Part shown: one piece after another, positions 9,716 through 31,969 of the stretch
How the letters are laid out: every line of letters starts with the position of its first letter
How positions within the stretch are numbered: the first letter of the stretch is position 1
NCBI RefSeq assembly: GCF_900109465.1
Contig: NZ_FOAZ01000011.1
Span: forward strand, 62,001-126,000
Source: Streptacidiphilus jiangxiensis
GTDB taxonomy: Bacteria; Actinomycetota; Actinomycetes; Streptomycetales; Streptomycetaceae
DNA length: 64,000 bases
Direction of reading: 5' to 3'
Program-made: the position numbers and the translations under genes
The notes under the pieces: model-generated
Databases searched by the model: none
What the model saw: only the letters and a program-made list of their open reading frames with translations
What the model was told of the DNA's origin: nothing

Positions 9716-9743
9716 TCAAGGGGATTCGGAAAGAGGTCATCAG

Positions 9744-12456: not shown

Positions 12457-14157
12457 GTGCACTGGCTCACCGACCACATCTTCAAGCCCTATCCAGAGCT
12501 GTTGATCTTCCTCACCGTGGCCATCGGCTTCCTCATCGGCAAGCTGCACTACAAGGCCATCGGACTGGGTGCGGTGACGGGCTGTCTCATCGCCGGTCTG
12601 TTCACCGGTTGGGCGACCGGGGTCTCGATCAACGGCACGGTCAAGTCCGTGTTCTTCATCATGTTCCTCTTCGCCCTCGGCTACAAAGTCGGCCCGCAGT
12701 TCTTCCGGGGGCTCAAGAAGGACGGCCTGCCGCAGGTGGGCGTGACCGTCGTGGTCTGCCTCACCGGCCTCGGCGTCTGCTACGGCTTCGCCCAGATGCT
12801 CGGCTACGGCCCCGGCCTCGGTGCGGGCCTGCTCGGCGGCGCGCTGACGCAGTCCGCCGTCATCGGGGTCGCGCAGGACGCCATCGGCGGCCTGCACGGC
12901 ATGACCCACGACCAGATCACCGCCGAACAGAACCTGGTGCCCATCGGTTACGCCGTCACCTATCCGCTCGGCACCATCCTCTGCGCGATCCTGCTGGCCA
13001 ACATCGCCCCGCGCCTCCTCAAGAGCGACCTGAAGAAGGACTCCGCACAACTGGCCAAGGAGCTCGACGCGCCCGCCTCCAACCCCGACCTCGGCGAGGG
13101 GTACTACGAGGTGGTGCTGCGGGCCTACAGCGTCGACGGGACGCCCATCTCCGGCATGACCATCGACGCGTTCGAGGCGCAGCAGAAGGAGCTGGGCCGT
13201 CGGGTGTACGTCACCCGGGTCCGCCGCGAGGGCAGGATCCTCGCGCACTCGCAGCAGACCGTGATCGAGCACGGCGACACCGTCGCCGTCAGCGCCCTGC
13301 GGCACGACCTCGTCGACCTGCGGCCCGTGCAGACCATCGGCGCCGAGACCGACGACGTGGAGCTGCTCGGCTACCAGACCGAGAGTCTGCACGTCGTCGC
13401 CTCGGAGAAGGCGCAGCTCGGCAAGACCGTGGCGGAGCTTCGGGCCGAGCCGTTCATGGTCGGCGTCTACATCGACAAGATCTACCGTGCGGGCTCCGAG
13501 TTCCCGTACCGTCTCTCCACGCAGATCGAGCGCGGTGACACCGTGGTCCTGACCGGCCCCAAGCGGCTGGTCGACCCGGCCGGCGCGGCCATCGGCAAGC
13601 CGGTGCCCACCAGCTTCGCCACCGACATGGTCTGGGTGGGCCTCGGCATCTTCCTCGGCGGCTGCATCGGCATCCCCTCGCTGACCGCGGGCGGCGTCCC
13701 GATCAGCCTCTCCACCTCCGGTGGCGCGCTGATCATGGGCCTGGTTTTCGGCTGGATCCGCGGCAAGTACCCGACCTACGGCAACGTCCCGCCGGGCGCG
13801 CAGTGGTTCATGGACACGCTGGGCCTGTGCCTCTTCATCGCCGTCGTCGGCATCAACGCCGGGCCCGGCTTCACCAGCGGGCTGAGCCAGGCCGGGTGGG
13901 GCCTGCTGGTCTGGGGCGCCGTCGCCACCGTGGTCCCGCTGATCGTGGGCCTCCTGGTCGGCCACTACGTCTTCAAGATCAGAACACCGATCCTGATGGG
14001 CGTCGTCGCCGGGGCACAGACCACGACGGCCGCCATCGGCGCGATCAACGAGGCCGCCGACTCCCAGGTGCCGACGCTCGGCTACACCATCCCCTACGCG
14101 GTGGGCAACGTGCTGCTGACCATCTGGGGCGCCGTCATCGTCGCGCTCCTCGCCTGA
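12457..14157 (+). CDS. aspT: Aspartate:alanine antiporter AspT
   Basis: Inner-membrane exchanger of the AAEX family that swaps extracellular aspartate for intracellular alanine. Five hydrophobic segments come first (LLIFLTVAIGFLIG onward), then a cytoplasmic stretch of about 180 residues containing two TrkA_C-like (RCK) domains, then a second half of membrane segments with GGVPISLSTSGGALIMGL and ILMGVVAGAQTTTAAIGAINE. The predicted length is 566; Tetragenococcus AspT has 543. GAGAGGGG lies 8 bases before the GTG at 12457; GTG 12451 and TTG 12418 are alternatives. The decarboxylase gene follows 69 bp later. Together they consume a cytoplasmic proton per aspartate and generate membrane potential. 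Confidence 0.93.
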   Translation: MHWLTDHIFKPYPELLIFLTVAIGFLIGKLHYKAIGLGAVTGCLIAGLFTGWATGVSINGTVKSVFFIMFLFALGYKVGPQFFRGLKKDGLPQVGVTVVVCLTGLGVCYGFAQMLGYGPGLGAGLLGGALTQSAVIGVAQDAIGGLHGMTHDQITAEQNLVPIGYAVTYPLGTILCAILLANIAPRLLKSDLKKDSAQLAKELDAPASNPDLGEGYYEVVLRAYSVDGTPISGMTIDAFEAQQKELGRRVYVTRVRREGRILAHSQQTVIEHGDTVAVSALRHDLVDLRPVQTIGAETDDVELLGYQTESLHVVASEKAQLGKTVAELRAEPFMVGVYIDKIYRAGSEFPYRLSTQIERGDTVVLTGPKRLVDPAGAAIGKPVPTSFATDMVWVGLGIFLGGCIGIPSLTAGGVPISLSTSGGALIMGLVFGWIRGKYPTYGNVPPGAQWFMDTLGLCLFIAVVGINAGPGFTSGLSQAGWGLLVWGAVATVVPLIVGLLVGHYVFKIRTPILMGVVAGAQTTTAAIGAINEAADSQVPTLGYTIPYAVGNVLLTIWGAVIVALLA

Positions 14158-18494: not shown

Positions 18495-20159
<1,665 letters not shown>

Positions 20160-21986: not shown

Positions 21987-22313
21987 GATGCGTGTTCCGG
22001 GTCGGCAGCAGGCGGCGGTGTCACCCGTATTGGGGTGCGCCACGGCCGGAACGACCGGCCGCGGGGCGCCGCTCGCGGAGGCGGCGGCTGCGAGTCCCAC
22101 CGTCAGGCCGATGCCGAGAAGGCTGCCGATGACGGTCGCGCCGATGTGGTTGCCCAGGTGATCCCCCGATCGGTGAACGTCGGCAGCGTGATGCTGCCGA
22201 TCTTGGGGGGCGGTACGTCGGGCCTGGCGGATCGCACCAGATCAAGATCGCGTCATGGCTGATTCCGGACCGCCACGCGGTCCCCGTCTGGCGTTCGGAG
22301 GGTTCGGGCGGGA
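21987..22313. other. Intergenic region, possible decayed gene
   Basis: No complete gene is supported. On the minus strand, about 22170-22060 encodes a hydrophobic signal-like stretch (ATVIGSLLGIGLTVGLAAAA then SASGAPRP). It has no ATG, GTG or TTG before the hydrophobic core (only CTG after GGGGATCAC) and no stop before it runs antisense through the cold-shock gene. It may be a remnant of a small secreted protein. Confidence 0.3.
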
Positions 22314-22541
22314 TCAGATCCCACCCCGGGAGACCGTCGGGCCGTATTTCTCGGGCTCTCTCCACAGGATCCATGCCACGCGGTCCGCCGGCAGCGACAC
22401 CCTTCGGGGGGCCCTGTCTCCGCCGAGGTGCATGCCGACCCATCCGTGCTCGAGTTCAACCGGAAGATCCATCTCGCCCTCGAAGGTCTCGCCGTCGATC
22501 TGGACTCGCCCGGTGAAGCAGATGCGCGCTTCCCGATACAT
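22314..22541 (-). CDS. Small hypothetical protein, 75 residues
   Basis: Unrecognised. From ATG 22541 it reads MYREARICFTGRVQIDGETF and continues EGEMDLPVELEHGW, a pattern of short alternating strands like a small beta barrel, ending with WILWREPEKYGPTVSRGGI. Codon bias is less extreme than in neighbours, and the ribosome site is weak (CGTGGG). It is divergent from the aminotransferase gene; the gap of 200 bp holds that gene's promoter. It could be a genuine small protein or a chance open frame; the amphipathic composition makes me favour a gene. Confidence 0.45.
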   Translation of the reverse strand: MYREARICFTGRVQIDGETFEGEMDLPVELEHGWVGMHLGGDRAPRRVSLPADRVAWILWREPEKYGPTVSRGGI

Positions 22542-22702
22542 CCCACGACCCCGATTCCGCTGATGATCACTCCTGTGTTCCAGCGTGCGCCCGACATCCG
22601 CTCCGCGCACACCGAGAGCCCGGGAGGGTGCGACGGGGCCAGGGAGGGCGCGAGAGGGTCCGAGCGGGCCCGGGAGGGCTCGTCCGAGCGCGCCCCGGTC
22701 TC

Positions 22703-22754
22703 TTGTCGACGACGGAACGGGCTGCTAATTTGAACGTTCATATGAACGTTCAAA
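22703..22754 (+). promoter_or_regulatory. Promoter with 26-bp palindromic operator over a leaderless start
   Basis: TTGTCG (22703-22708) and TAATTT (22726-22731) are -35/-10-like elements 17 bp apart. Two TGAACGTTCA decamers (22731-22740 and 22743-22752) separated by TA, with flanking TT and AA, make a perfect palindrome from 22729 to 22754. It covers the end of the -10 box, the expected transcription start and the ATG (22742). There is no Shine-Dalgarno, so the mRNA is probably leaderless. A CG-centred site of this form suits a LacI-family repressor such as the one at 26126 (inference). Confidence 0.7.
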
Positions 22755-23911
22755 GATACCTTGCGCAGTTCCAGGAGCCCGCTGGGTACCTGGACTTCGG
22801 GCGGTTCGGGCCGATCTCCGCGGTGGCCGCCGAGGCGCTCGGCGACGCCGTCGGGTTGATGGCGGGCCACGGGTGGGACGCGTTGGAGGCGCTCGACGCG
22901 GCGACGGTGCGGGCCGCGCGGAGCGCGGGGAGGTTGCTCGGGGCGCGCGAGGAGGAGGTCGCGTTCGTCGGGTCCACGTCGCACGGGATGTTCGCGGCGG
23001 CGTTCGCCCTCGTCGGACCGCAGGGGGGCGGTGCGCGGCGGGGGAGCGTGCTGGTCGGGCGGCGGGACTTCCCGGCGGCCGTCTACCCGTGGCTGCGCGC
23101 CGAGGAGCATGGGGGTTTGACGGTTCGTCTCCTGGACGGACCGGCCACGGTCGACGCGGTGCGGGAGCGCCTGGATCCGGATGTGCGCGCGGTCTGCGTG
23201 TGTGCGGTGGACGGGGTGACCGGGTTCCGGGCGCCGCTGGCGGAGCTCAAGGAGCTGATCGGTCCGGATCGGGTGCTGGTGGTGGACGCCGTGCAGGCGC
23301 TGGGCGCCGTGCCGGTGGAGGCGGAGGCGGCCGACGTGCTGGCCTGTGGTGGCCAGAAGTGGCTGCGCGCCGGTTGGGGGGCCGCGCTGCTGCTCGTCCG
23401 GGAGCGGGTCCGGGAGCGCTTGCGGCCGGGGCTCGGTGGATGGGCGGGGGTGGTCGACCCGCTGGGCGGGTTCGACCACCCCCGCCCATCCCTCCCGGGG
23501 GCGCGGGCGCACACCCTGACGAATCCCGACGGGCCTGCCGTCGCAGCGCTCGGGGCCGGACTGCGGCTGGTGCAGGAGGTCGGGGTCGAGCGGATCAACG
23601 CGTTGATCGAGGAGGTCCTCGGTGAGCTCGGCGAGACCGCACGCGCGCTCGGCCTGCGGTGGGACCGGGGCCGGATCGGTGACGGTCCCGGCAGCGGGTT
23701 CGCCCGGATCGCGATGCCGGGCGTGGACCCGGCCGCCCTGCACGTGGCACTCGGTGACGTCGGTCTGACCACCACCCTGCGCGGCGAGTGGATCCGGCTG
23801 TCGCCGCACGCGTCGTCGACCACCCGCTCGCCGGACGCGGCGGCGCGGTTGCGCGCGGCGGTCCTGGCGATCGGTCAGCGGTCGACCCGGACACCGCTGC
23901 GGACCGGCTGA
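22742..23911 (+). CDS. Class V aminotransferase-like PLP enzyme
   Basis: A 389-residue fold-type I PLP protein resembling cysteine desulfurases, kynureninases and isopenicillin N epimerase-like enzymes. It has VGSTSHGMFAAAF (cofactor phosphate region), VVDAVQALGAVPV (Asp pairing with the pyridine N) and CGGQKWLRAGWG with the Schiff-base lysine. There is no conserved active-site cysteine loop typical of SufS, so desulfurase activity is unlikely. The ATG is embedded in the 26-bp palindrome and lacks a ribosome site. The upstream in-frame extension to 22628 contains the promoter and is rejected. The substrate is unknown; the neighbouring glycosidase and LacI gene suggest a link to sugar or amino-sugar metabolism (inference). 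Confidence 0.85.
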   Translation: MNVQRYLAQFQEPAGYLDFGRFGPISAVAAEALGDAVGLMAGHGWDALEALDAATVRAARSAGRLLGAREEEVAFVGSTSHGMFAAAFALVGPQGGGARRGSVLVGRRDFPAAVYPWLRAEEHGGLTVRLLDGPATVDAVRERLDPDVRAVCVCAVDGVTGFRAPLAELKELIGPDRVLVVDAVQALGAVPVEAEAADVLACGGQKWLRAGWGAALLLVRERVRERLRPGLGGWAGVVDPLGGFDHPRPSLPGARAHTLTNPDGPAVAALGAGLRLVQEVGVERINALIEEVLGELGETARALGLRWDRGRIGDGPGSGFARIAMPGVDPAALHVALGDVGLTTTLRGEWIRLSPHASSTTRSPDAAARLRAAVLAIGQRSTRTPLRTG

Positions 23912-24097
23912 GCCGGCCGGCGGGGACCGGGCGGGGGAGCAGGTCACGGGACCGGATGGGTTCCGCAGCCGCGCCAGACAGCCTCTGTCGCATTGCCCGG
24001 AGGCAGGGGCTGTCCGGCGTGCTGCGGAACCGTTCTCCTGTCGCTTCACCCGTCGCTTCACCCGTCCGAGCGCCCGTCGCAGCCGCCGCGCCGGACG

Positions 24098-24120
24098 TTG
24101 TCGGTGGCGCGGTGTAAGCC
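24098..24120 (+). promoter_or_regulatory. Possible PafBC-type promoter ahead of the GH36 gene
   Basis: TTGTCGGTG matches the actinobacterial RecA-NDp consensus TTGTCRGTG at all nine positions. After exactly eight bases comes TAAGCC, where the consensus is TANNNT. The final T is missing. It lies 74 bp before the ATG of the glycosidase. A sugar-catabolic gene would be an unexpected member of this regulon, so chance is a real possibility. Confidence 0.35.
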
Positions 24121-24141
24121 GGACAACACACAGAGCACACG

Positions 24142-24172
24142 GAACGTCAGAACGTCGGAACGTCAGAACGCG
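24142..24172. repeat. 8-bp tandem repeat GAACGTC in the GH36 leader
   Basis: GAACGTCA, GAACGTCG, GAACGTCA and GAACGCGC follow each other with an 8-bp period just upstream of the ribosome site. GAACGT is also the half-site of the palindrome at 22729-22754, so the array might be a set of regulator half-sites, or merely slippage. Confidence 0.5.
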
Positions 24173-24193
24173 CACCAGAGGAGGACACGAACG

Positions 24194-26002
24194 ATGACGA
24201 CCGCTCAGGACGTGTGGGAGCCGTACGCCGCCACCGCGGGGGCCGGGGGCGTGCTGCCGCGGCTCGTCTTCGCGGGCGGGCTGACGCTGCTGGTCACCGG
24301 TGAGGCACGGATCGAGGAGCTCGGCGCGCAGGTGGTCGAGGTGGAGGTGCGGTCGTCGGAGCCGGCACCCGTCGCCGACGCCGACGGCCGGGGGGCCGTG
24401 CGGATCGAGTGGCGGGTGCCCTGCGTCGACGCGGTGGCCTACTGGACGCCCGGCGCCGCCGACGGGGCGGGCTGGCTGCCCGCCGCGTGGTCCGCGCCCC
24501 GCCGGGTGTCCGTGGCGAGCGACGCGCCCGTCGGAGCCCTGGTCGGCACCGGGGACGTGGGCATCTGCACCTTTGCCACCCGCCCGGCGGGCGGCGCGGC
24601 CGAGGTGCTGATCGGCGCGGGAGTCGTCGAGGAGACCGGCGAGTTCCGCGTCTGGATGCAGGCGCCGGACGTTCTGACGGTCCGGATCGACACCTCGCGC
24701 CGGCACTTCGCCGACTGCCTCGCCGAGGTCGCCGAGTGGTGGGCGGCGGGCGAGCAGGTCCGGCCCGTGCGCGTGCCCGACGCGGCGCGGCGGCCCGCGT
24801 ACTCGACCTGGTACTCCATGCACCAGCAGGTGACGCCTGAGGCGGTGGAGCGTCAGGCCGCGCTCGGCAAGGAGTTGGGCCTGGACACGATCATCGTGGA
24901 CGACGGGTGGATGACGGGCGACCGCGGGCGCGGCTACGGCCACTGCGGCGACTGGGAGCCTGTCTCGCTGCCGGACACGGCCGCGCACGTCGCGCGGGTG
25001 CACGCGCTCGGAGTGCGCTACCTGCTCTGGTACGCGCTGCCGTTCGTCGGGCGCGCGAGCTCGGTGTGGGACGAGTTCCAGCCCTACGCACTGGCCCGCC
25101 TCGACGCGTTGGACGCCATCGTGGTCGACCCGCGCTACCAGGCCGTCCGTGCGCATCTGGCGGACCGTCTGGCGCGGGCGGTCGAGGAGTGGCACATGGA
25201 CGGATTGAAGATCGACTTCATCGACCGCTTCCATGTCGCGGAGCCGCCGCCAGTCGGGCCGGGGGCCGACTGCGCGAGCGTCGGGGAGGGGGTGGAGCGG
25301 TTGCTCGCGGAGATCCGCCGCCGGATCGACGCGGTCGCGCCGCACGCCATGGTGGAGACCCGCCAGCCGTATGTCTCGCCGGGTCTGTGGCCCTACGCGA
25401 CGATGATCCGCGCGGTGGACTGCCCCCTCGGGCCGGGCGAGAACCGGCGGCACACGATCGACACCCGGCTGGTCGCCGGTCCGCTCGCGGTCCACGCGGA
25501 CATGCTGATGTGGCATCCGGGCGAGCCCGTCGAGCAGATCGCCTGCCACCTGATCAACGTGCTCTTCGCGGTGCCGCAGATCTCCGTCGACCTGGCCCTG
25601 CTGTCCGAGGAGCAGCGCGAGGTGCTGGCGTTCTGGCTCGGTGTGTTCCGCGACCGCGCCGAGCTGTTGCAGCGAGGTGCGCTGCGTCCGTCCCGCCCCG
25701 ATCTCGGCTACCCGCTGGTCCGGGCGGAGAGCCACGCGGGTACGTCCGTCGCCGTCGCCCGTTACGCCGCACTGCCGGTCGACGCCGGGGGCGCGTGGCG
25801 GGAGCTGCTGATAGCCAACGCCGACGCTGATCCGTGCGTGGTGCTGCGGGGCGGGGCCGGCCGCGCGAGCGCGGTCGTCCGGGACGCGCGCGGGCGGGTT
25901 GTGGCCCGGGAGCTGTTCGAGCTGGACGCGGCAGCGGGTGCGGGCGCGCCCGTCTGCGTGACCGTCCCGCGCGGAGGGCTCGCTACGCTGACCAGGGAGT
26001 GA
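24194..26002 (+). CDS. GH36-type alpha-galactosidase (clan GH-D)
   Basis: A 602-residue cytoplasmic enzyme without signal peptide, predicted to hydrolyse alpha-galactosides by a retaining mechanism. An N-terminal beta-sandwich runs to about residue 200. The TIM barrel follows, starting at RPAYSTWYSMHQQVTPEAV with IIVDDGWM. Then come DGLKIDFIDRF with the nucleophile Asp, and MIRAVDCPLG with the likely acid/base Asp. A small C-terminal beta domain ends GGLATLTRE. It is shorter than canonical GH36 (about 700), so specificity is uncertain. The ATG follows AGGAGG. No sugar transporter is adjacent. The next gene is a LacI regulator on the same strand. Confidence 0.85.
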   Translation: MTTAQDVWEPYAATAGAGGVLPRLVFAGGLTLLVTGEARIEELGAQVVEVEVRSSEPAPVADADGRGAVRIEWRVPCVDAVAYWTPGAADGAGWLPAAWSAPRRVSVASDAPVGALVGTGDVGICTFATRPAGGAAEVLIGAGVVEETGEFRVWMQAPDVLTVRIDTSRRHFADCLAEVAEWWAAGEQVRPVRVPDAARRPAYSTWYSMHQQVTPEAVERQAALGKELGLDTIIVDDGWMTGDRGRGYGHCGDWEPVSLPDTAAHVARVHALGVRYLLWYALPFVGRASSVWDEFQPYALARLDALDAIVVDPRYQAVRAHLADRLARAVEEWHMDGLKIDFIDRFHVAEPPPVGPGADCASVGEGVERLLAEIRRRIDAVAPHAMVETRQPYVSPGLWPYATMIRAVDCPLGPGENRRHTIDTRLVAGPLAVHADMLMWHPGEPVEQIACHLINVLFAVPQISVDLALLSEEQREVLAFWLGVFRDRAELLQRGALRPSRPDLGYPLVRAESHAGTSVAVARYAALPVDAGGAWRELLIANADADPCVVLRGGAGRASAVVRDARGRVVARELFELDAAAGAGAPVCVTVPRGGLATLTRE

Positions 26003-26035
26003 CGGGGCCGACGTGGCGCACGCGCCCAGGTGCCC

Positions 26036-26105
26036 AGGTGGGCACGCGCAGGCACGGACACGCACGCGCACGCACGGACACGTACGGGCACGGGCACGTA
26101 CGTAG
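26036..26105. repeat. CACGSRCA-type microsatellite in the LacI leader
   Basis: GCACGCGCAGGCACGGACACGCACGCG and similar hexa-/octamer repeats of CACG with A/G variation fill most of the gap between the glycosidase stop and the LacI ribosome site. It can be read as Thr-His-Ala repeats but lies upstream of the better start. Confidence 0.5.
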
Positions 26106-26125
26106 AGGACGAGGAACGGGCGAGG

Positions 26126-27202
26126 GTGAGCGGGACGGGAGCGGCGGGTGCCGGCGGGCCGGGCCGTCGGCGACGGAGCGGGGCGACGATCGAGCAGGTC
26201 GCCCGCGAGGCGGGGGTGTCGCGGCAGACGGTGTCGAACGCGCTCAACGCGCCGGAGCGGGTGCGACCGGAGACGCTGGACCGGGTCCGTGCCGCCATCG
26301 AGCGGCTCGGCTACCAGCCGGACCAGTCCGCCCGTTCCCTGCGCACGGGCGAGCGCCGCACGCTCGCCTACCTCGCGCCCGTGGACGATCCGCACGACCC
26401 CAACCCGCTGATGGGCGGCTTCCTGGAGGCCCTGGTCGACGCCGCGGGTGCGGCGGGCTACCGCGTGCTGCTGTTCCGCCCCCGCCCGGGCGCGGCCGAT
26501 CCGACGGCCGCGGTCGAGGAGCTGATCGCGGCGCGGCAGGTGGACGGTTTCGTCCTCGCCGACGTGCTGCCGGACGATCCACGGGTGCGTCATCTGGCCG
26601 CGACGGGGCTGCCGTTCGTCTGCTTCGGACGGACCGGGCGCGGACTGCCGCAGGGCTGGGTCGACATCGACAACGCGGCGGCGATGGCCGCGGTGGCCGC
26701 GCACCTCGCCGAGCGCGGGCACCGGCACGTCGGTTATCTCGGGCCGGTGGACGACGCGGACCTGCCGTGGCTGGCCGAGCGTCGTGCGGGGTTCCGGGAC
26801 GCGGCCGGGCGGCACGGATTGGAGTTGGCGGTCGAGCAGACGGAGGAAGAGACGCACGCGGGCCTCGCGGTGAGGGCGCGCGCCCTGCTGCGCCCGTCGA
26901 GCAGCGGCGGCCGACGGGTGACGGCGATCGCGGCGGCGACGGATCTGTGCGCGTTGGCGGCCTACGAGGCGGTGCGGGGCGAGCGGCTGGCCGTCGGCGC
27001 GGATGTCGCCGTGGTCGGCTTCCACGACCTGCCGCTGTGCCGGGTGCTGCAACCGCCGCTCAGCTCCGTGCGGTTGCCGCTGCGGCGGATCGCCGCGGAG
27101 CTGGTCGACGGGCTGCTGGCACAGGTGCGGGGCGGCGACGTGCCCGCCGAGGGCGTGCTGCTGCCGGCGGAGCTGGTCGTCCGCGCGAGCAGCGGCGGCT
27201 GA
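26126..27202 (+). CDS. LacI-family transcriptional regulator
   Basis: A 358-residue repressor. The helix-turn-helix is TIEQVAREAGVSRQTVSNALNAPERVRPETLDRVRAAIERLGYQPDQSARSLRTG (hinge helix included), and the sugar-binding domain ends DVAVVGFHDLPLCRVLQPPLSSV. The GTG at 26126 has GAGGAA upstream; the longer in-frame start at 26030 would translate the microsatellite. It is the last gene of the aminotransferase-glycosidase block and the best candidate to bind the TGAACGTTCA palindrome at 22729-22754. The ligand may be a galactoside or its product (inference). Confidence 0.92.
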   Translation: MSGTGAAGAGGPGRRRRSGATIEQVAREAGVSRQTVSNALNAPERVRPETLDRVRAAIERLGYQPDQSARSLRTGERRTLAYLAPVDDPHDPNPLMGGFLEALVDAAGAAGYRVLLFRPRPGAADPTAAVEELIAARQVDGFVLADVLPDDPRVRHLAATGLPFVCFGRTGRGLPQGWVDIDNAAAMAAVAAHLAERGHRHVGYLGPVDDADLPWLAERRAGFRDAAGRHGLELAVEQTEEETHAGLAVRARALLRPSSSGGRRVTAIAAATDLCALAAYEAVRGERLAVGADVAVVGFHDLPLCRVLQPPLSSVRLPLRRIAAELVDGLLAQVRGGDVPAEGVLLPAELVVRASSGG

Positions 27203-27267: not shown

Positions 27268-29232
27268 TCAGCGGCTCGGCACGGCCAGCAGCAGGGCGAA
27301 GCGTTCGGCGTCGTCCGTCCACCAGTGTCGGACGGTGAAGCCGCCGGTCGCCAACTCCTCGGTGAGCGAGGCACGGCGGAACTTGCAGGAGATCTCCGTC
27401 CGCAGGTGCTCGTCGGCCGCGAAGTCGACGGACAGGTCCAGCGCGGGGATCTTGACGGTCTGCTCGCGCAGCGAGCGCAGGTGCATCTCGATGCGCTCGT
27501 GCTCCTCGTTCCAGCGCGCGACGTGCGCGAAGGCGTCGACGTCGAAGTCGGCGTCCAGTTCACGGTCGAGGACGTTCAGCACGTTCTTGTTGAACTCCGC
27601 GGTCACGCCCTGGCTGTCGTCGTAGGCGCGGATCAGCACCTCGCGGTCCTTGACCAGGTCGGCGCCGAGCAGCAGAACGTCGTCGGCGCTGAGGGTGAGC
27701 CGCAGCGAGCGGTAGAAGGCCTGCCGCTGGGCCTCGTCGAGGTTGCCGATGGTGCTGCCGAGGAAGGCCACCAGGCGGGGGCCGGGGGCGTCGGGCGGCA
27801 GGGTGAGGTCGGACTCGAAGTCGGTGACGGTCGCGGCGACGCGCAGGCCGGGGTAGTCGCGGACCAGGGCGGTCCCCGCCTGCTCCAGCGCGCTCGGGCT
27901 GACGTCGAGCGGGGCGTAGCAGGAGAGCGTGCCCGCGGCGGTGAGCGCGTCGAGCAGCAGGCGGGTCTTGCGGGAGGAACCGGAGCCGAGCTCGAAGAGG
28001 GTGCCGGCGCGGGTGAGCGCGGCGATCTCCGGGGCACGCCGGGTCAGGATCTCCTGCTCGGCGCGGGTGGGGTAGTACTCGGCGAGACGCGTGATCTGCT
28101 CGAACAGCTCGCTGCCGTGGGCGTCGTAGAACCACTTGGGCGGCAGGGTCTTCGGGTCGGCGGTGAGGCCGGAGACGACGTCCTGGCGCAGGGCCTTGGC
28201 CAGGTGGTCGGCGGGGAGCCGGTCGTCCAGGGTGAAGAACGGTCGCTGCGTGATCATGGTGGATCTCTCCGGTTCTGTTCCGCGGTCGGCGGGCAGGCGG
28301 CTGCTGTCGTGCCTGCGGGAGGAACGGGGGGAAGAAGGGGAAAGCCGGGAGGAACGTCGCTGGGAAAGGGAGTCGGCCGGGTCCGTCGGCGGACGCAGGG
28401 GGACGAGGTGGACGCCCGCCCGGGTCGCCAGCAGCAGGGAGTGGTCGGGGACCTCCTGCCAGGTGCCGGTCGTGTCCGTCCCCGGTTCCTCGTCCGGTTC
28501 GGACGCGACGAGGACCCGGCCCGGCGCGTGCCGGTACCAGAGCGTGTCGCCGTACCGGGTGGCCGCGATCGTCGCGCCGTCGGTGAGCAACAGGTTGAGC
28601 CGCGCGTCGGGGCGGACCGAGGCCACCTGCCGCACCAGCGCCGCCAGCGCGCCGGCGGCCGGTTCGCCCCGGCGCAGGCGGCGGGCGAGCATCGCCCACA
28701 GCAGGGCGGAGTCGCTGCGTGCGTCGAGGGCGAGCAGCGCGGCGCTGTCCAGTGGCGCGTCGGCGCCGGGTCCCTGCGCGGCGGCGAGGGCGGCCGGGAG
28801 CCGGGTCCAGTCGGCGACGGCGCCGTTGTGGCTGAAGAGGCGGCGCCCGTCGCGGAACGGCGCGGCCGCCGACTCGTCCTGGGTCGTCCCGGCCGTGGCG
28901 GAGCGCACCGCGGCGAGGAGCGCACCGGTGCGGACGGCGCGGGCGAGCTCGGGCAGGTTCGGGTCGGCCCAGATCGGGACCGCCCGCCGGTAGCGGGCCG
29001 GCTCGGGGGCCTCCGGCTGTTCGTCGTCCCCGGCGAGGGATGCGGCGAGGGACGTGGCGGGGGACGTGACGACGGGTTCCGGGTACCAGCCCAGGCCGAA
29101 GCCGTCCGCGTTGACGGTGCCGTAGCGCTGTCGGCGCGGGGACCAGGACTGCTCGTACAGTCCCCGGGCCGGTTGCAGCACGATGTCGGCGAGCGGCCGC
29201 ACCGGTCCCAGATAGGCGAGGTGGCGGCACAT
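27268..29232 (-). CDS. egtD: EgtC-EgtD fusion: gamma-glutamyl hercynylcysteine sulfoxide amidohydrolase plus histidine N-alpha-methyltransferase
   Basis: One 654-residue open frame. Residues 1 to about 280 are EgtC, an Ntn class II amidotransferase fold starting MCRHLAYLGPVR with nucleophile Cys2, which removes glutamate from the sulfoxide intermediate. Residues 326-654 are EgtD (MITQRPFFTLDDRLP, FELGSGSSRKTRLLLDAL, LVAFLGSTIGNLDEAQ), the SAM enzyme that trimethylates histidine to hercynine. No stop codon separates them; a Ser/Arg-rich linker (SLSQRRSSRLSPSSPRSS) joins them. EgtD also has its own ATG (28257) behind GGAGAG, so a free EgtD may be made too. The ATG overlaps the egtB stop (TGATG). 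The two domains are separate proteins in characterised pathways. Confidence 0.88.
   Translation of the reverse strand: MCRHLAYLGPVRPLADIVLQPARGLYEQSWSPRRQRYGTVNADGFGLGWYPEPVVTSPATSLAASLAGDDEQPEAPEPARYRRAVPIWADPNLPELARAVRTGALLAAVRSATAGTTQDESAAAPFRDGRRLFSHNGAVADWTRLPAALAAAQGPGADAPLDSAALLALDARSDSALLWAMLARRLRRGEPAAGALAALVRQVASVRPDARLNLLLTDGATIAATRYGDTLWYRHAPGRVLVASEPDEEPGTDTTGTWQEVPDHSLLLATRAGVHLVPLRPPTDPADSLSQRRSSRLSPSSPRSSRRHDSSRLPADRGTEPERSTMITQRPFFTLDDRLPADHLAKALRQDVVSGLTADPKTLPPKWFYDAHGSELFEQITRLAEYYPTRAEQEILTRRAPEIAALTRAGTLFELGSGSSRKTRLLLDALTAAGTLSCYAPLDVSPSALEQAGTALVRDYPGLRVAATVTDFESDLTLPPDAPGPRLVAFLGSTIGNLDEAQRQAFYRSLRLTLSADDVLLLGADLVKDREVLIRAYDDSQGVTAEFNKNVLNVLDRELDADFDVDAFAHVARWNEEHERIEMHLRSLREQTVKIPALDLSVDFAADEHLRTEISCKFRRASLTEELATGGFTVRHWWTDDAERFALLLAVPSR
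28255..28270 (-). promoter_or_regulatory. Internal ribosome binding site and start for EgtD
   Basis: GGAGAG (28270-28265) is followed after seven bases by ATG (28257), in frame within the EgtC-EgtD fusion. Independent initiation here would yield a 329-residue EgtD of normal length. Confidence 0.7.
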
Positions 29233-30659
29233 CAGCGACCGGCCCCCGCAGTCTCGTCCGGGCTCGCGTCGCGGGCGGTGCGGAAGCCGGCGAAGATCTG
29301 TCGGCGGATCGGGTAGTCCCAGTTGCGGAAGGTGCCGCGGCAGGCGACCGGGTCCACGCCGAACGCGCCGCCGCGCAGCACCTTGTAGTCCGGTCCGAAG
29401 AAGACCTCCGAGTACTCCTTGTACAGGAAGGCCGTGAAGCCGGGGTGCGGCGCGAAGTCGCTGGCGGTCCACTCCCACACGTCCCCGATCAGCTGGCGCA
29501 CCCCGTGCGGGGAGGCGCCGGCCGGGTGGCTGCCGACGGGGGAGGGCTGGAGGTGGCGCTGTCCGAGGTTGGCCAGCTCGGGGGTGGGGTCGGCGTCGCC
29601 CCACGGGTAGCGGCGGGAGCGGCCGGTGGCCGGGTCGTGGCGGGCGGCCTTCTCCCACTCGGCCTCCGTCGGCAGCCGGCGTCCGGCCCAGCGGGCGTAG
29701 GCGTCGGCCTCGTACCAGCACACGTGCAGCACCGGCTCGTCCAGTGGCACCGGCTCGACCACGCCGAAGCGGCGGCGCAGCCAGCCGCCCGGGGTGGCCT
29801 CCGGGTCATCGGCGCGGCGCCAGAACAGCGGTGCGTGCAGGCCTGCCTGGACCCGGTGGGCCCAGCCGGCCGTGGTCCACCAGCGCGGGTCCTCGTAGCC
29901 GCCGTCGGCCATGAAGGCCTGGTAGGCGCGGTTGCTGACGGGCACGGTGTCGAGCCAGAAGCCGGCGACGTCGACGCGGTGGGCGGGGCGCTCGTTGTCC
30001 AGGGCCCACGGCTCGTCGTCGGTGCCCATGGTGAACGGGCCCGCGGGTATCCACGTCTCGGCGGGCAGGTCGGCGGCGTCCGCGGGGGCCGCGGCGGGGC
30101 GCGGCGCGCGCAGGACGGCCGGGCCGTGGCGCAGTTGGTGGGTGGCGAGCATGGTCTCGTCGTGCTGCTGCTCGTGCTGGGCGAGCATGCCGAAGACGAA
30201 GCCGTCGGCGAGGAGGGGGTCCGCTTCGTCGTGGTCGAGCCGCGCGGTGTCCAGCACGGCGAGGGCCCGGTCGCGCACGGCTGCGACGTAGCGACGGGCG
30301 GGCTCGGGGGGCAGCAGCGGCAGTGCGGGCCGCTCGGCCCGCGGGTGCTGGAAGGCGTCGTAGAGCGGGTCCAGGTCGGGCCGGATCGCGTCCTGGCCGC
30401 CGGCGGCGCGCACCAGCCAGATCTCCTCCTGGTTGCCGATGTGGGCCAGGTCCCAGACGAGCGGTGACATCAGTCGGGAGTGCTGCGCGCAGAGTTCCTC
30501 GTCGTCGAGGCAGTCGGTGAGCGCGAGCGTGCGCCGTCGGGCCCGCTCCAGCGCCTCCCGTGCGGCCGCGCGGACCGCGCCGGGCGTCGAGGCAGCGGGC
30601 GGGGTGGTCGAGGCGGCGGGGGTGGTCGCGGGGTCGCTCGGGTGCGCGGGCGCGGTCAT
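29232..30659 (-). CDS. egtB: Ergothioneine biosynthesis protein EgtB (hercynine oxygenase)
   Basis: A 475-residue non-haem iron enzyme that joins hercynine to gamma-glutamylcysteine with O2, forming the C-S bond and sulfoxide. The N-terminal DinB_2 domain has LAHIGNQEE and the iron motif HEQQHDE (H-x3-H-x-E). The C-terminal FGE-sulfatase domain has WIPAGPFTMGTDDEPWALDNERPAH, LPTEAEWEKAAR and the end FRNWDYPIRRQIFAGFRTAR. ATG 30659 overlaps the egtA stop (ATGA) and its own stop overlaps the egtC ATG, so A-B-C/D are translationally coupled. Confidence 0.96.
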   Translation of the reverse strand: MTAPAHPSDPATTPAASTTPPAASTPGAVRAAAREALERARRRTLALTDCLDDEELCAQHSRLMSPLVWDLAHIGNQEEIWLVRAAGGQDAIRPDLDPLYDAFQHPRAERPALPLLPPEPARRYVAAVRDRALAVLDTARLDHDEADPLLADGFVFGMLAQHEQQHDETMLATHQLRHGPAVLRAPRPAAAPADAADLPAETWIPAGPFTMGTDDEPWALDNERPAHRVDVAGFWLDTVPVSNRAYQAFMADGGYEDPRWWTTAGWAHRVQAGLHAPLFWRRADDPEATPGGWLRRRFGVVEPVPLDEPVLHVCWYEADAYARWAGRRLPTEAEWEKAARHDPATGRSRRYPWGDADPTPELANLGQRHLQPSPVGSHPAGASPHGVRQLIGDVWEWTASDFAPHPGFTAFLYKEYSEVFFGPDYKVLRGGAFGVDPVACRGTFRNWDYPIRRQIFAGFRTARDASPDETAGAGR

Positions 30660-31969
30660 CGCGGGAGTCCTTCCGGATGGGCGGGGCGACCGGTGGCGCT
30701 GAGGTCGTCCAGGAGGTCGTCGGCGGGACATCGCCCGCGTGCGGTGTACTGCTCGGCGAAGGTGGTGACGGCCGCGCGCAGCGGCGCGGGGACGTCGGCC
30801 CGGGCGAGGGCCGCGTCGGCGGCCTCGAAGCAGGCCAGGGCGGCCTTGGCGAGTTCGGGAGCGGAGGCGCCCATGCGGGCGGCGCGGGTCCAGACGGCCA
30901 GTGGCGGGAACGGCGAGGACGCGCCGCACAGCGGCTCGGTGGCCGCCCAGGCGGCCTCGGCCGCCCGCAGGTCGTCCAGCAGGACGGTGGTGACCAGCGC
31001 CGGCACGATCCAGCCGTCGCCGGGCTGCTCGTCGATCATGCGCAGTTCCAGCCAGCCGCGGGCGCGGACCGGCGGGAAGAGCGTGCTCAGGTGGTAGTCC
31101 AGGTCGCCGCGGGTGGGCGGGCGTTCGGCGACGCCACCGCGGAGCCAGGAGGCGAAGGTGTGGCCGGCCGGGGAGGTCCAGTCGGCGGTCTCGTCGCGCC
31201 GCAGGCACAGCAGGCCGGCGTCGAGCGCGAAGCGCGCCCAGGCGTCGCGTGGGTCGGCGTCGGGGGGAAGGCCCTGCGGGGGACGGGTGCGGCTGGGGTC
31301 GAGGTGCTCCCAGACGGCCTGCCGGGTGGACCGCCAGCCGGTTGGTCGGCCCTGCCACAGCGGGGAGTTGGCGAACGCCGCGACGAGGACCGGGCCGAGG
31401 CGGTGCACCAGCTGCCAGCGGGCGCGGTAGCCGTCCAGGCCGCCGTTCTCGGTGCCGGCGTCCAGGTTGAGCTGCACGGCGGCGGTGGCGCGCATCATCA
31501 TCCGGCCCCACGGGCCGATCCGGTCGAGGTAGGTCTCCATGGCTGTGTAGCGCGGGTGGTCCAGCACGCGCGGCGGATCGCGGAAGGGATCCAGGCCGTA
31601 GCCGGAGAGATGCAGGCCGTGGCCGTCCAGCGCCGTGCGGACGAGCGCGAGGTCGGCCGCGGCAGTGGTGACGCACGCGAGCGGGCCGGGCGCACAGGCG
31701 GTGCTCAGTTCCAGTTGGCCGCCCGGCTCGCGGGTGAGCACGGTCCCGCTGGGCAGTCGGCCGTCCGTCGCCGGGAGTGACGCGAGGGCCGTGTCGAGGC
31801 GTTCGGGCGGTACGGGGCGGCGCGGCTCCGTGCGGTCGAGGACCAGCCATTCGAGCTCCACGCCCGCGTTTCCCGGCGGTCCCGTCTTGAAGCACACGCC
31901 GTGGATGTGGCCTTCGGCCTGGTCGAGCGAGAGCTCGTCCTTCGCCTCGGTACCGATCTCATGTCCCAC
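30656..31969 (-). CDS. egtA: Glutamate-cysteine ligase EgtA
   Basis: First gene of the ergothioneine operon: a 437-residue ATP-dependent ligase of the GCS2-type fold that makes gamma-glutamylcysteine, the sulfur donor used by EgtB. Recognisable segments are VELEWLVLD, REPGGQLELSTA, MMMRATAAVQLNLDAG and RGWLELRMIDEQPG, all typical of EgtA. The GTG start follows AAGGAGGA at eight bases, a very strong ribosome site. Ergothioneine is a thiol antioxidant in actinomycetes. Confidence 0.94.
   Translation of the reverse strand: MGHEIGTEAKDELSLDQAEGHIHGVCFKTGPPGNAGVELEWLVLDRTEPRRPVPPERLDTALASLPATDGRLPSGTVLTREPGGQLELSTACAPGPLACVTTAAADLALVRTALDGHGLHLSGYGLDPFRDPPRVLDHPRYTAMETYLDRIGPWGRMMMRATAAVQLNLDAGTENGGLDGYRARWQLVHRLGPVLVAAFANSPLWQGRPTGWRSTRQAVWEHLDPSRTRPPQGLPPDADPRDAWARFALDAGLLCLRRDETADWTSPAGHTFASWLRGGVAERPPTRGDLDYHLSTLFPPVRARGWLELRMIDEQPGDGWIVPALVTTVLLDDLRAAEAAWAATEPLCGASSPFPPLAVWTRAARMGASAPELAKAALACFEAADAALARADVPAPLRAAVTTFAEQYTARGRCPADDLLDDLSATGRPAHPEGLPR

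Follow-up and report, generated by a model that had tools for sequence, protein, structure and literature searches.

A perfect 26-bp palindrome over an aminotransferase start codon in Streptacidiphilus jiangxiensis: a putative double operator for the LacI-family repressor of the same transcription unit

The window analysed here is the whole stretch of 64,000 nucleotides of Streptacidiphilus jiangxiensis DNA. Three successive genes on the same strand form the unit of interest:

22742..23911, + strand: class V aminotransferase gene, 389 aa (PF00266, E 1.2e-20)
24194..26002, + strand: GH36/melibiase-like glycosidase gene, 602 aa (Melibiase PF02065 with 24 bits, below the cut-off of 27)
26126..27202, + strand: gene of a LacI-family regulator, 358 aa from the GTG at 26126, recognition helix SRQTVSNAL, with orthologues in 26/27 related loci

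The orthologue of the glycosidase in the related locus L022 passes the PF02065 cut-off with 33.7 bits. The regulator has an N-terminal helix-turn-helix and a periplasmic-binding-like domain, the composition of the LacI family. Its reading frame is open from the GTG at 26030, and a profile search of 26030-27199 found PF00356 with 56.7 bits (2.1e-15, cut-off 27) and PF13377 with 117 bits (1.2e-33, cut-off 26.5). Elsewhere in the window, an ergothioneine biosynthesis cluster occupies 27268-31969 on the minus strand, where EgtA, EgtB and EgtD score above the NCBIfam cut-offs and an EgtC-like frame was recognised by eye between the genes. An EttA-type ABC-F protein, also above its NCBIfam cut-off, is encoded on the minus strand at 18495-20159.

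The region around the start of the aminotransferase gene contains the following elements:

22703..22708, + strand: -35-like hexamer TTGTCG; in 24/29 loci, the -10 register is preceded at exactly 17 bp by a -35 starting with TT (23 TTG, 1 TTC)
22726..22731, + strand: -10-like hexamer TAATTT of the TANNNT type; TANNNT stands at the same exact register in 22/29 loci
22729..22742, + strand: putative operator O1, TTTGAACGTTCATA, centre 22735.5, with one mismatch to the motif TTTGAACGTTCAAA
22741..22754, + strand: putative operator O2, TATGAACGTTCAAA, centre 22747.5, holding the ATG and the codons Met-Asn-Val-Gln

A 26-bp palindrome over the start codon had been claimed in a first-pass annotation and assigned to the span 22703-22754. 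This span contains the palindrome but includes the promoter; the palindrome proper, TTTGAACGTTCATATGAACGTTCAAA, begins at 22729 and runs to 22754 with no mismatch, and the ATG at 22742-22744 lies inside it. Together, O1 and O2 begin within the -10 box and reach the first codons of the aminotransferase gene. Their centres are 12 bp apart, compared with about 13 bp for the overlapping LacI sites described in the survey of Ravcheev et al. 2014 (PMC4052901), and both are CG-centred even palindromes, as the rule for LacI-type operators in that survey asks. Nothing else in the window came within three mismatches of TTTGAACGTTCATATGAACGTTCAAA, and 0 of 100 shuffles yielded one. The decamer TGAACGTTCA was present twice in the window (22731-22740 and 22743-22752), compared with 0.01 expected. 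A search of the 9.54-Mb genome, which the first-pass annotation had proposed as a check, found this decamer at four places. Two of these form the window pair; as read by eye, one of the further copies lies at another sugar operon and one in an intergenic hairpin. Allowing up to two mismatches from TTTGAACGTTCAAA added a single genomic site to the window pair, a copy of TGTGAACGTTCACA, and a different LacI gene lies 3.4 kb from it. The regulon of the window's LacI protein looks small, in keeping with the small self-contained regulon that had been suggested.

The TGTGAACGTTCACA site (L003, at 9557 of L145) in the same genome is accompanied by a degenerate TGTGAACGTGCACA at 9733, 176 bp apart, and the two appear to belong to a second small LacI-type system. 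By our own reading of the raw sequence, the genes on either side of them are likely to encode a beta-galactosidase and a sugar-binding lipoprotein. The LacI gene at 13096 has the helix GISRGTVSRV and is presumably the own regulator of the TGTGAACGTTCACA site.

The -35 and -10 hexamers of the window are 17 bp apart and no Shine-Dalgarno match was found ahead of the ATG, both as the first-pass annotation had it. A gap of 10 nt separates the -10 hexamer from the ATG, and the final T of TAATTT doubles as the T of TGAACG. A generic promoter scan of 22200-24300 returned 0 promoters, the -35/-10 pair being too weak to score, yet the same register is common to most relatives. In S. coelicolor, 21% of the primary starts are reported to give leaderless mRNAs, with TANNNT as the general -10 motif (PMC4895711), and leaderless genes are therefore a common feature in such bacteria. 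With a TANNNT box shortly before the start and no Shine-Dalgarno match, the aminotransferase gene of the window is probably leaderless, the grade that it had been given before. In the same-genus genome G012, a correct promoter assignment would leave hardly any alternative to a leaderless start, because a stop in the upstream frame restricts the possible starts to two, the ATG or a TTG overlapping the -10.

The LacI gene 3.4 kb downstream had been named as a candidate regulator. Contigs were scanned for relatives of the aminotransferase, and the best 80 of 231 loci were taken. These split into 27 operon loci at 46-61% identity, from the five genera Kitasatospora, Arthrobacter, Nonomuraea, Sphaerisporangium and Streptomyces, and 53 paralogue loci at 38-43% that were used as controls. 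A motif match was defined as at most 3 mismatches of 14, within -300 to +60 of the start of the aminotransferase match. The motif was observed at the gene start in all 27 operon loci and in none of the 53 paralogue loci; in the remaining parts of these sequences, it was met three times in 332 kb of the operon loci and once in 654 kb of the paralogue loci. An orthologous LacI gene was present in 26/27 operon loci, the exception being L036, where the contig ends early. The glycosidase was found in 25/27, but not in L024 and in L036, which is cut by the contig end. Among the 53 paralogue loci there was no glycosidase, and 51 had no LacI match, although L073, L076 and L080 break off less than 1.7 kb downstream and the absence of LacI there says little; L097 and L098 had a weak LacI match of 107 and 89 bits. 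Because the motif is present in 27/27 versus 0/53 loci and a LacI orthologue in 26/27, the downstream gene (26126-27202) is very probably the regulator acting on the palindrome. A further gene cluster was common to 22 of the 27 loci; it is a solute-binding protein in both members tested (L021 and L022), in each of which one permease was examined as well. The window, G012 (L147) and the Arthrobacter locus L020 have no solute-binding or permease genes between the aminotransferase and the glycosidase.

The recognition helix supports this assignment. RQT(V/I)SN was found in 28/28 LacI rows. In the LacI code as given by Camas et al. (PMC2978694), residues 15 and 16 pair with bases 5 and 4, and Arg-20 with a G at base 6. 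Among 104 half-sites, which were picked by similarity to the motif and are biased toward agreement at bases 1-5, G4 was present in 104, T5 in 102 and a base other than G at position 6 in 89. Opposite Asn-20, base 6 was T in 73, A in 15, G in 15 and C in 1 half-site. Gln-16 meets T5 G4, agreeing with the LacI pattern, and the Asn replacing Arg goes with the loss of G6, although 15/104 half-sites keep it; all 15 sit in upstream operators, despite the Asn in the helix. The helix and the half-site bases fit the published code and thus support the reading of the sites as LacI operators.

Two operators in the O1/O2 layout, 53-91 bp apart, were observed in 23 of the 27 operon loci. Two motif matches were present in 24, but the second match of L020 was a far-upstream TTCGAACGTTCAAA in another layout, which was excluded from this count, from the promoter table and from the half-site counts. 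In most two-operator loci O1 overlaps the -10, the T of TGAAC being also the final base of that hexamer, and O2 follows 53-56, 65, 85-86 or 91 bp downstream of O1. The promoter comparison covered 29 loci (the window, G012 and the 27 operon loci), of which L019, L023, L025, L026 and L027 are without the 17-bp -35 register.

The reading frame was checked in 29 two-operator loci, namely the 23 plus L121 and L127-L131, extra Streptomycetaceae pair loci that partly repeat strains of the first set. In 29/29, the ATG or TTG of O2 shares the frame of the gene, and no stop intervenes. The distance from O2 to the conserved GYLD motif took 12 different values, every one of them 1 modulo 3, the pattern that translation through O2 would produce. 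In L034, L037, L038, L039 and L048, the TTG of O2 is the sole ATG, GTG or TTG between the upstream stop and GYLD. In 27/29 loci, the O2 start follows a ribosome-site match of 3-4 bases, counted without a shuffle control. The remaining two, L022 and L028, have no such match for the O2 start; an in-frame start 18 nt upstream matches better, and the start of their aminotransferase may lie there, outside O2. In the two-operator loci, the ATG or TTG inside O2 is most likely the start of the gene. Since in-frame, stop-free O2 starts and modulo-3 distances are found across the relatives, the placing of an operator over an in-frame start codon recurs as a trait of the operon and is not a peculiarity of the window.

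The promoter/operator layout is not universal among the compared sequences, since the one perfect operator of L019, L026 and L027 (Kitasatospora type) lies off the window-type promoter register, and L023 and L025 are without the 17-bp register. In the Kitasatospora-type loci L019, L026, L027, L120 and L122-L126, a single perfect operator is kept, and an in-frame ATG with a 4-5-base ribosome-site match lies 28-43 bp beyond the first base of this operator. At 10.5 bp per turn, the operator distances of 12, 53-56, 65 and 85-86 bp exceed a whole number of turns by 0.05-0.33 turn. The 91-bp distance of two loci breaks this pattern, and a helical phasing of the operators is suggestive only.

The fused arrangement was then sought in larger sets of genomes. 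The exact double decamer was found in 1 of 61 genomes searched, namely the window's own. Pairs of TGARCGYTCA occurred in 12/394 genomes of the class, and only the window's own had the 12-bp spacing; a generic 12-bp spacing rule was rejected on this count. The pattern TGAACGNTCA-N0-30-TGAACGNTCA was present in 18/394 family genomes, with 12-bp spacing in four (G000, G111, G135, G319), and of these four pairs only the window's belongs to an aminotransferase/LacI operon. Many 15-bp cases in this search were non-palindromic TGAACGGTCA repeats. The 12-bp layout is thus rare in the class and family searches, and for the aminotransferase/LacI operon the fused double operator rests on one genome of the survey. 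The tandem fusion had been called unusual, which holds, but tandem overlap was already described: at 110 operons, Ravcheev et al. found LacI sites that overlap with a spacing of about 13 bp and were not able to reconcile them with the known structures (PMC4052901).

Abutting LacI-type operators were also met outside this operon. L099 and L100, from two genomes of one genus, have three abutting 12-bp operators GTGARCGYTCAC at 1488-1523, downstream of a LacI gene, and a likely sugar-binding-protein gene was read downstream of the triple in L099. Two abutting GTGARCGTTCAC operators lie at 1500-1523 of L112, with a LacI gene on one side and, on the other, a divergent gene resembling a sugar-binding protein. 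In L099, L100, L112 and L145, LacI proteins with TVSR or TVTR stand beside GTGA-type sites.

The closest relative of the window locus points to a possible origin of the fused form. In a tree of 37 aminotransferase rows, the window and the same-genus G012 are sisters (100/98); this pair adjoins the single-operator Kitasatospora-type group, with the two-operator L121 just outside. G012 has a three-gene unit, and its LacI protein is 71% identical to that of the window. Its site TAATTTGAACGTTCAAATG is a single operator abutting the ATG, 10 nt from the -10 as in the window, and the window departs from it by a second operator 12 bp further on. By eye, a 12-bp duplication of the G012 site gives the 26-bp sequence of the window with one base difference and keeps the frame. 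The two sites of the window look like a collapsed form of the recurrent two-operator layout. In an older promoter, O1 would have covered the -10 and O2, 53-91 bp further on, the start codon; the layout of the window's genus would have followed when the intervening leader was lost. The 12-bp pair could have arisen when both ancestral operators were brought together, or when one merged operator was duplicated by 12 bp. Merger followed by duplication is slightly favoured because the window and G012 share the distance to the ATG.

Taken together, we consider it likely that the palindrome is a double operator for the LacI repressor encoded in its own unit, that its two registers are occupied alternately and that it arose by loss of a leader. 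For the binding and repression we infer the following course. A LacI-family dimer on either register would cover the -10 box and the transcription start and exclude RNA polymerase. Release by a sugar-type ligand would permit synthesis of the aminotransferase, the glycosidase and the repressor itself from a leaderless mRNA. The 26-mer most likely accommodates a single dimer at a time, and the second register would add an opportunity for binding, not a second bound dimer. Alternate occupancy is favoured because the registers overlap in the bases read by the inner LacI heads. The first-pass annotation had also expected a block of leaderless translation. This is not expected, because the repressor binds DNA and not mRNA, and the fold of the RNA is ordinary (z -0.46); the DNA-bound repressor should block transcription, not translation.

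Two other explanations keep this LacI core and concern only the role of the second register. Two dimers might occupy the overlapping registers together in a mode that solved LacI complexes do not show, involving for instance local unwinding, and repression would then be tighter and cooperative. All four half-sites of the window pair are intact, abutting 12-bp operators recur at LacI-linked regions (three copies in L099/L100, two in L112), and the overlapping sites at the 110 operons are conserved in GntR regulons; the survey proposes that such overlapping sites are bound in a special mode in which the DNA is partly unwound (PMC4052901). Joint occupancy nevertheless seems unlikely to us, as both inner reading heads would claim the same bases at a centre distance of 12 bp, dimers at such distances cannot interact according to the same survey, and G012 has one operator only. 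This single operator also speaks for a second register that is a by-product, left by a recent 12-bp in-frame tandem duplication of a G012-type operator with no regulatory consequence. Such a duplication yields the 26-mer but for one base, by eye, and 12 bp preserves the frame. We regard a mere by-product as possible but doubtful: both copies are intact to their outer bases and the whole palindrome is perfect, unlike a decaying copy, although a recent origin would explain that too.

The remaining two explanations abandon the LacI repressor. The motif is palindromic and lies over an in-frame start codon in many relatives, so that it could work in RNA, as a start-codon hairpin limiting translation. 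In the 23 two-operator loci, however, there is an upstream copy too, mostly on the -10 and hence outside the mRNA, and a leaderless mRNA of the window would be without the left arm. Three start-region folds were no better than shuffles (z -0.46, -0.32 and -0.52), and on these ordinary folds the hairpin was rejected as extremely improbable. Fused palindromes of about 26 bp are also bound by pairs of TetR-family dimers, and a different regulator, for example of this family, could bind the palindrome with the LacI gene as a bystander. That is very improbable in our view, as the half-site fits the LacI code and the motif and LacI co-occur against the 53 controls. Moreover, the gene clusters in at least 20 of the 29 sequences are the aminotransferase, the solute-binding protein, the glycosidase and LacI, the smaller clusters being partly identified.

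The putative double operator of the window would be a perfect symmetric example of the overlapping LacI operators that are recurrent but structurally unexplained in the survey (PMC4052901). The locus is part of a natural series, with a fused pair in the window, one copy in the same-genus G012 and separated copies in the relatives, in which one dimer can be set against two. Were two dimers bound together, the operator pairs and triples that recur at 12-13 bp would have an explanation, and the 26-mer would be the cleanest natural substrate of this mode. An operator that recurs over the start codon across genera would constrain the protein to a set beginning, mostly Met-Asn-Val/Asp/Ala-Gln, and explain the TTG starts, and the locus suggests a route from a leadered to a leaderless gene. 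A literature search found no paper combining TGAACGTTCA with LacI and none combining the LacI family, overlapping operators and Streptomyces; TTGAACGTTCAA was found only in one unrelated C. elegans paper, and a search on the gene names of the operon gave nothing close. The main text of the LacI survey PMC4052901 has 0 occurrences of "Streptomyces". The novelty would lie in a local LacI regulation with a recurrent start-codon operator, fused here into a 26-bp double operator, overlapping LacI sites as such being already known.

Among known systems, CytR (PMC3454398), a LacI relative with flexible spacing, was set aside as the window-type sites keep a fixed centre. Like the leaderless genes described for Streptomyces (PMC4895711), the aminotransferase gene has a TANNNT box just before the ATG and no Shine-Dalgarno match; unlike them, its leaderless form appears to be derived from a leadered gene by operators brought together. 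The unit resembles the local LacI repressors of sugar operons in the survey PMC4052901 in that the LacI gene lies inside the operon that it probably controls, the palindrome is CG-centred, there is more than one operator, and genes for an ABC sugar transporter and a glycosidase are present in most relatives. It differs from the sites of that survey, less than 1% of which are reported to fall in coding regions, by one operator that holds an in-frame start codon across genera. A further parallel is GntR at gntKU of E. coli, as described in PMC4052901, where two overlapping operators about 13 bp apart serve one LacI-family regulator at a promoter. In contrast to gntKU, the window has a spacing of 12 bp, a perfect 26-bp palindrome and a start codon inside it, and the gene is probably leaderless.
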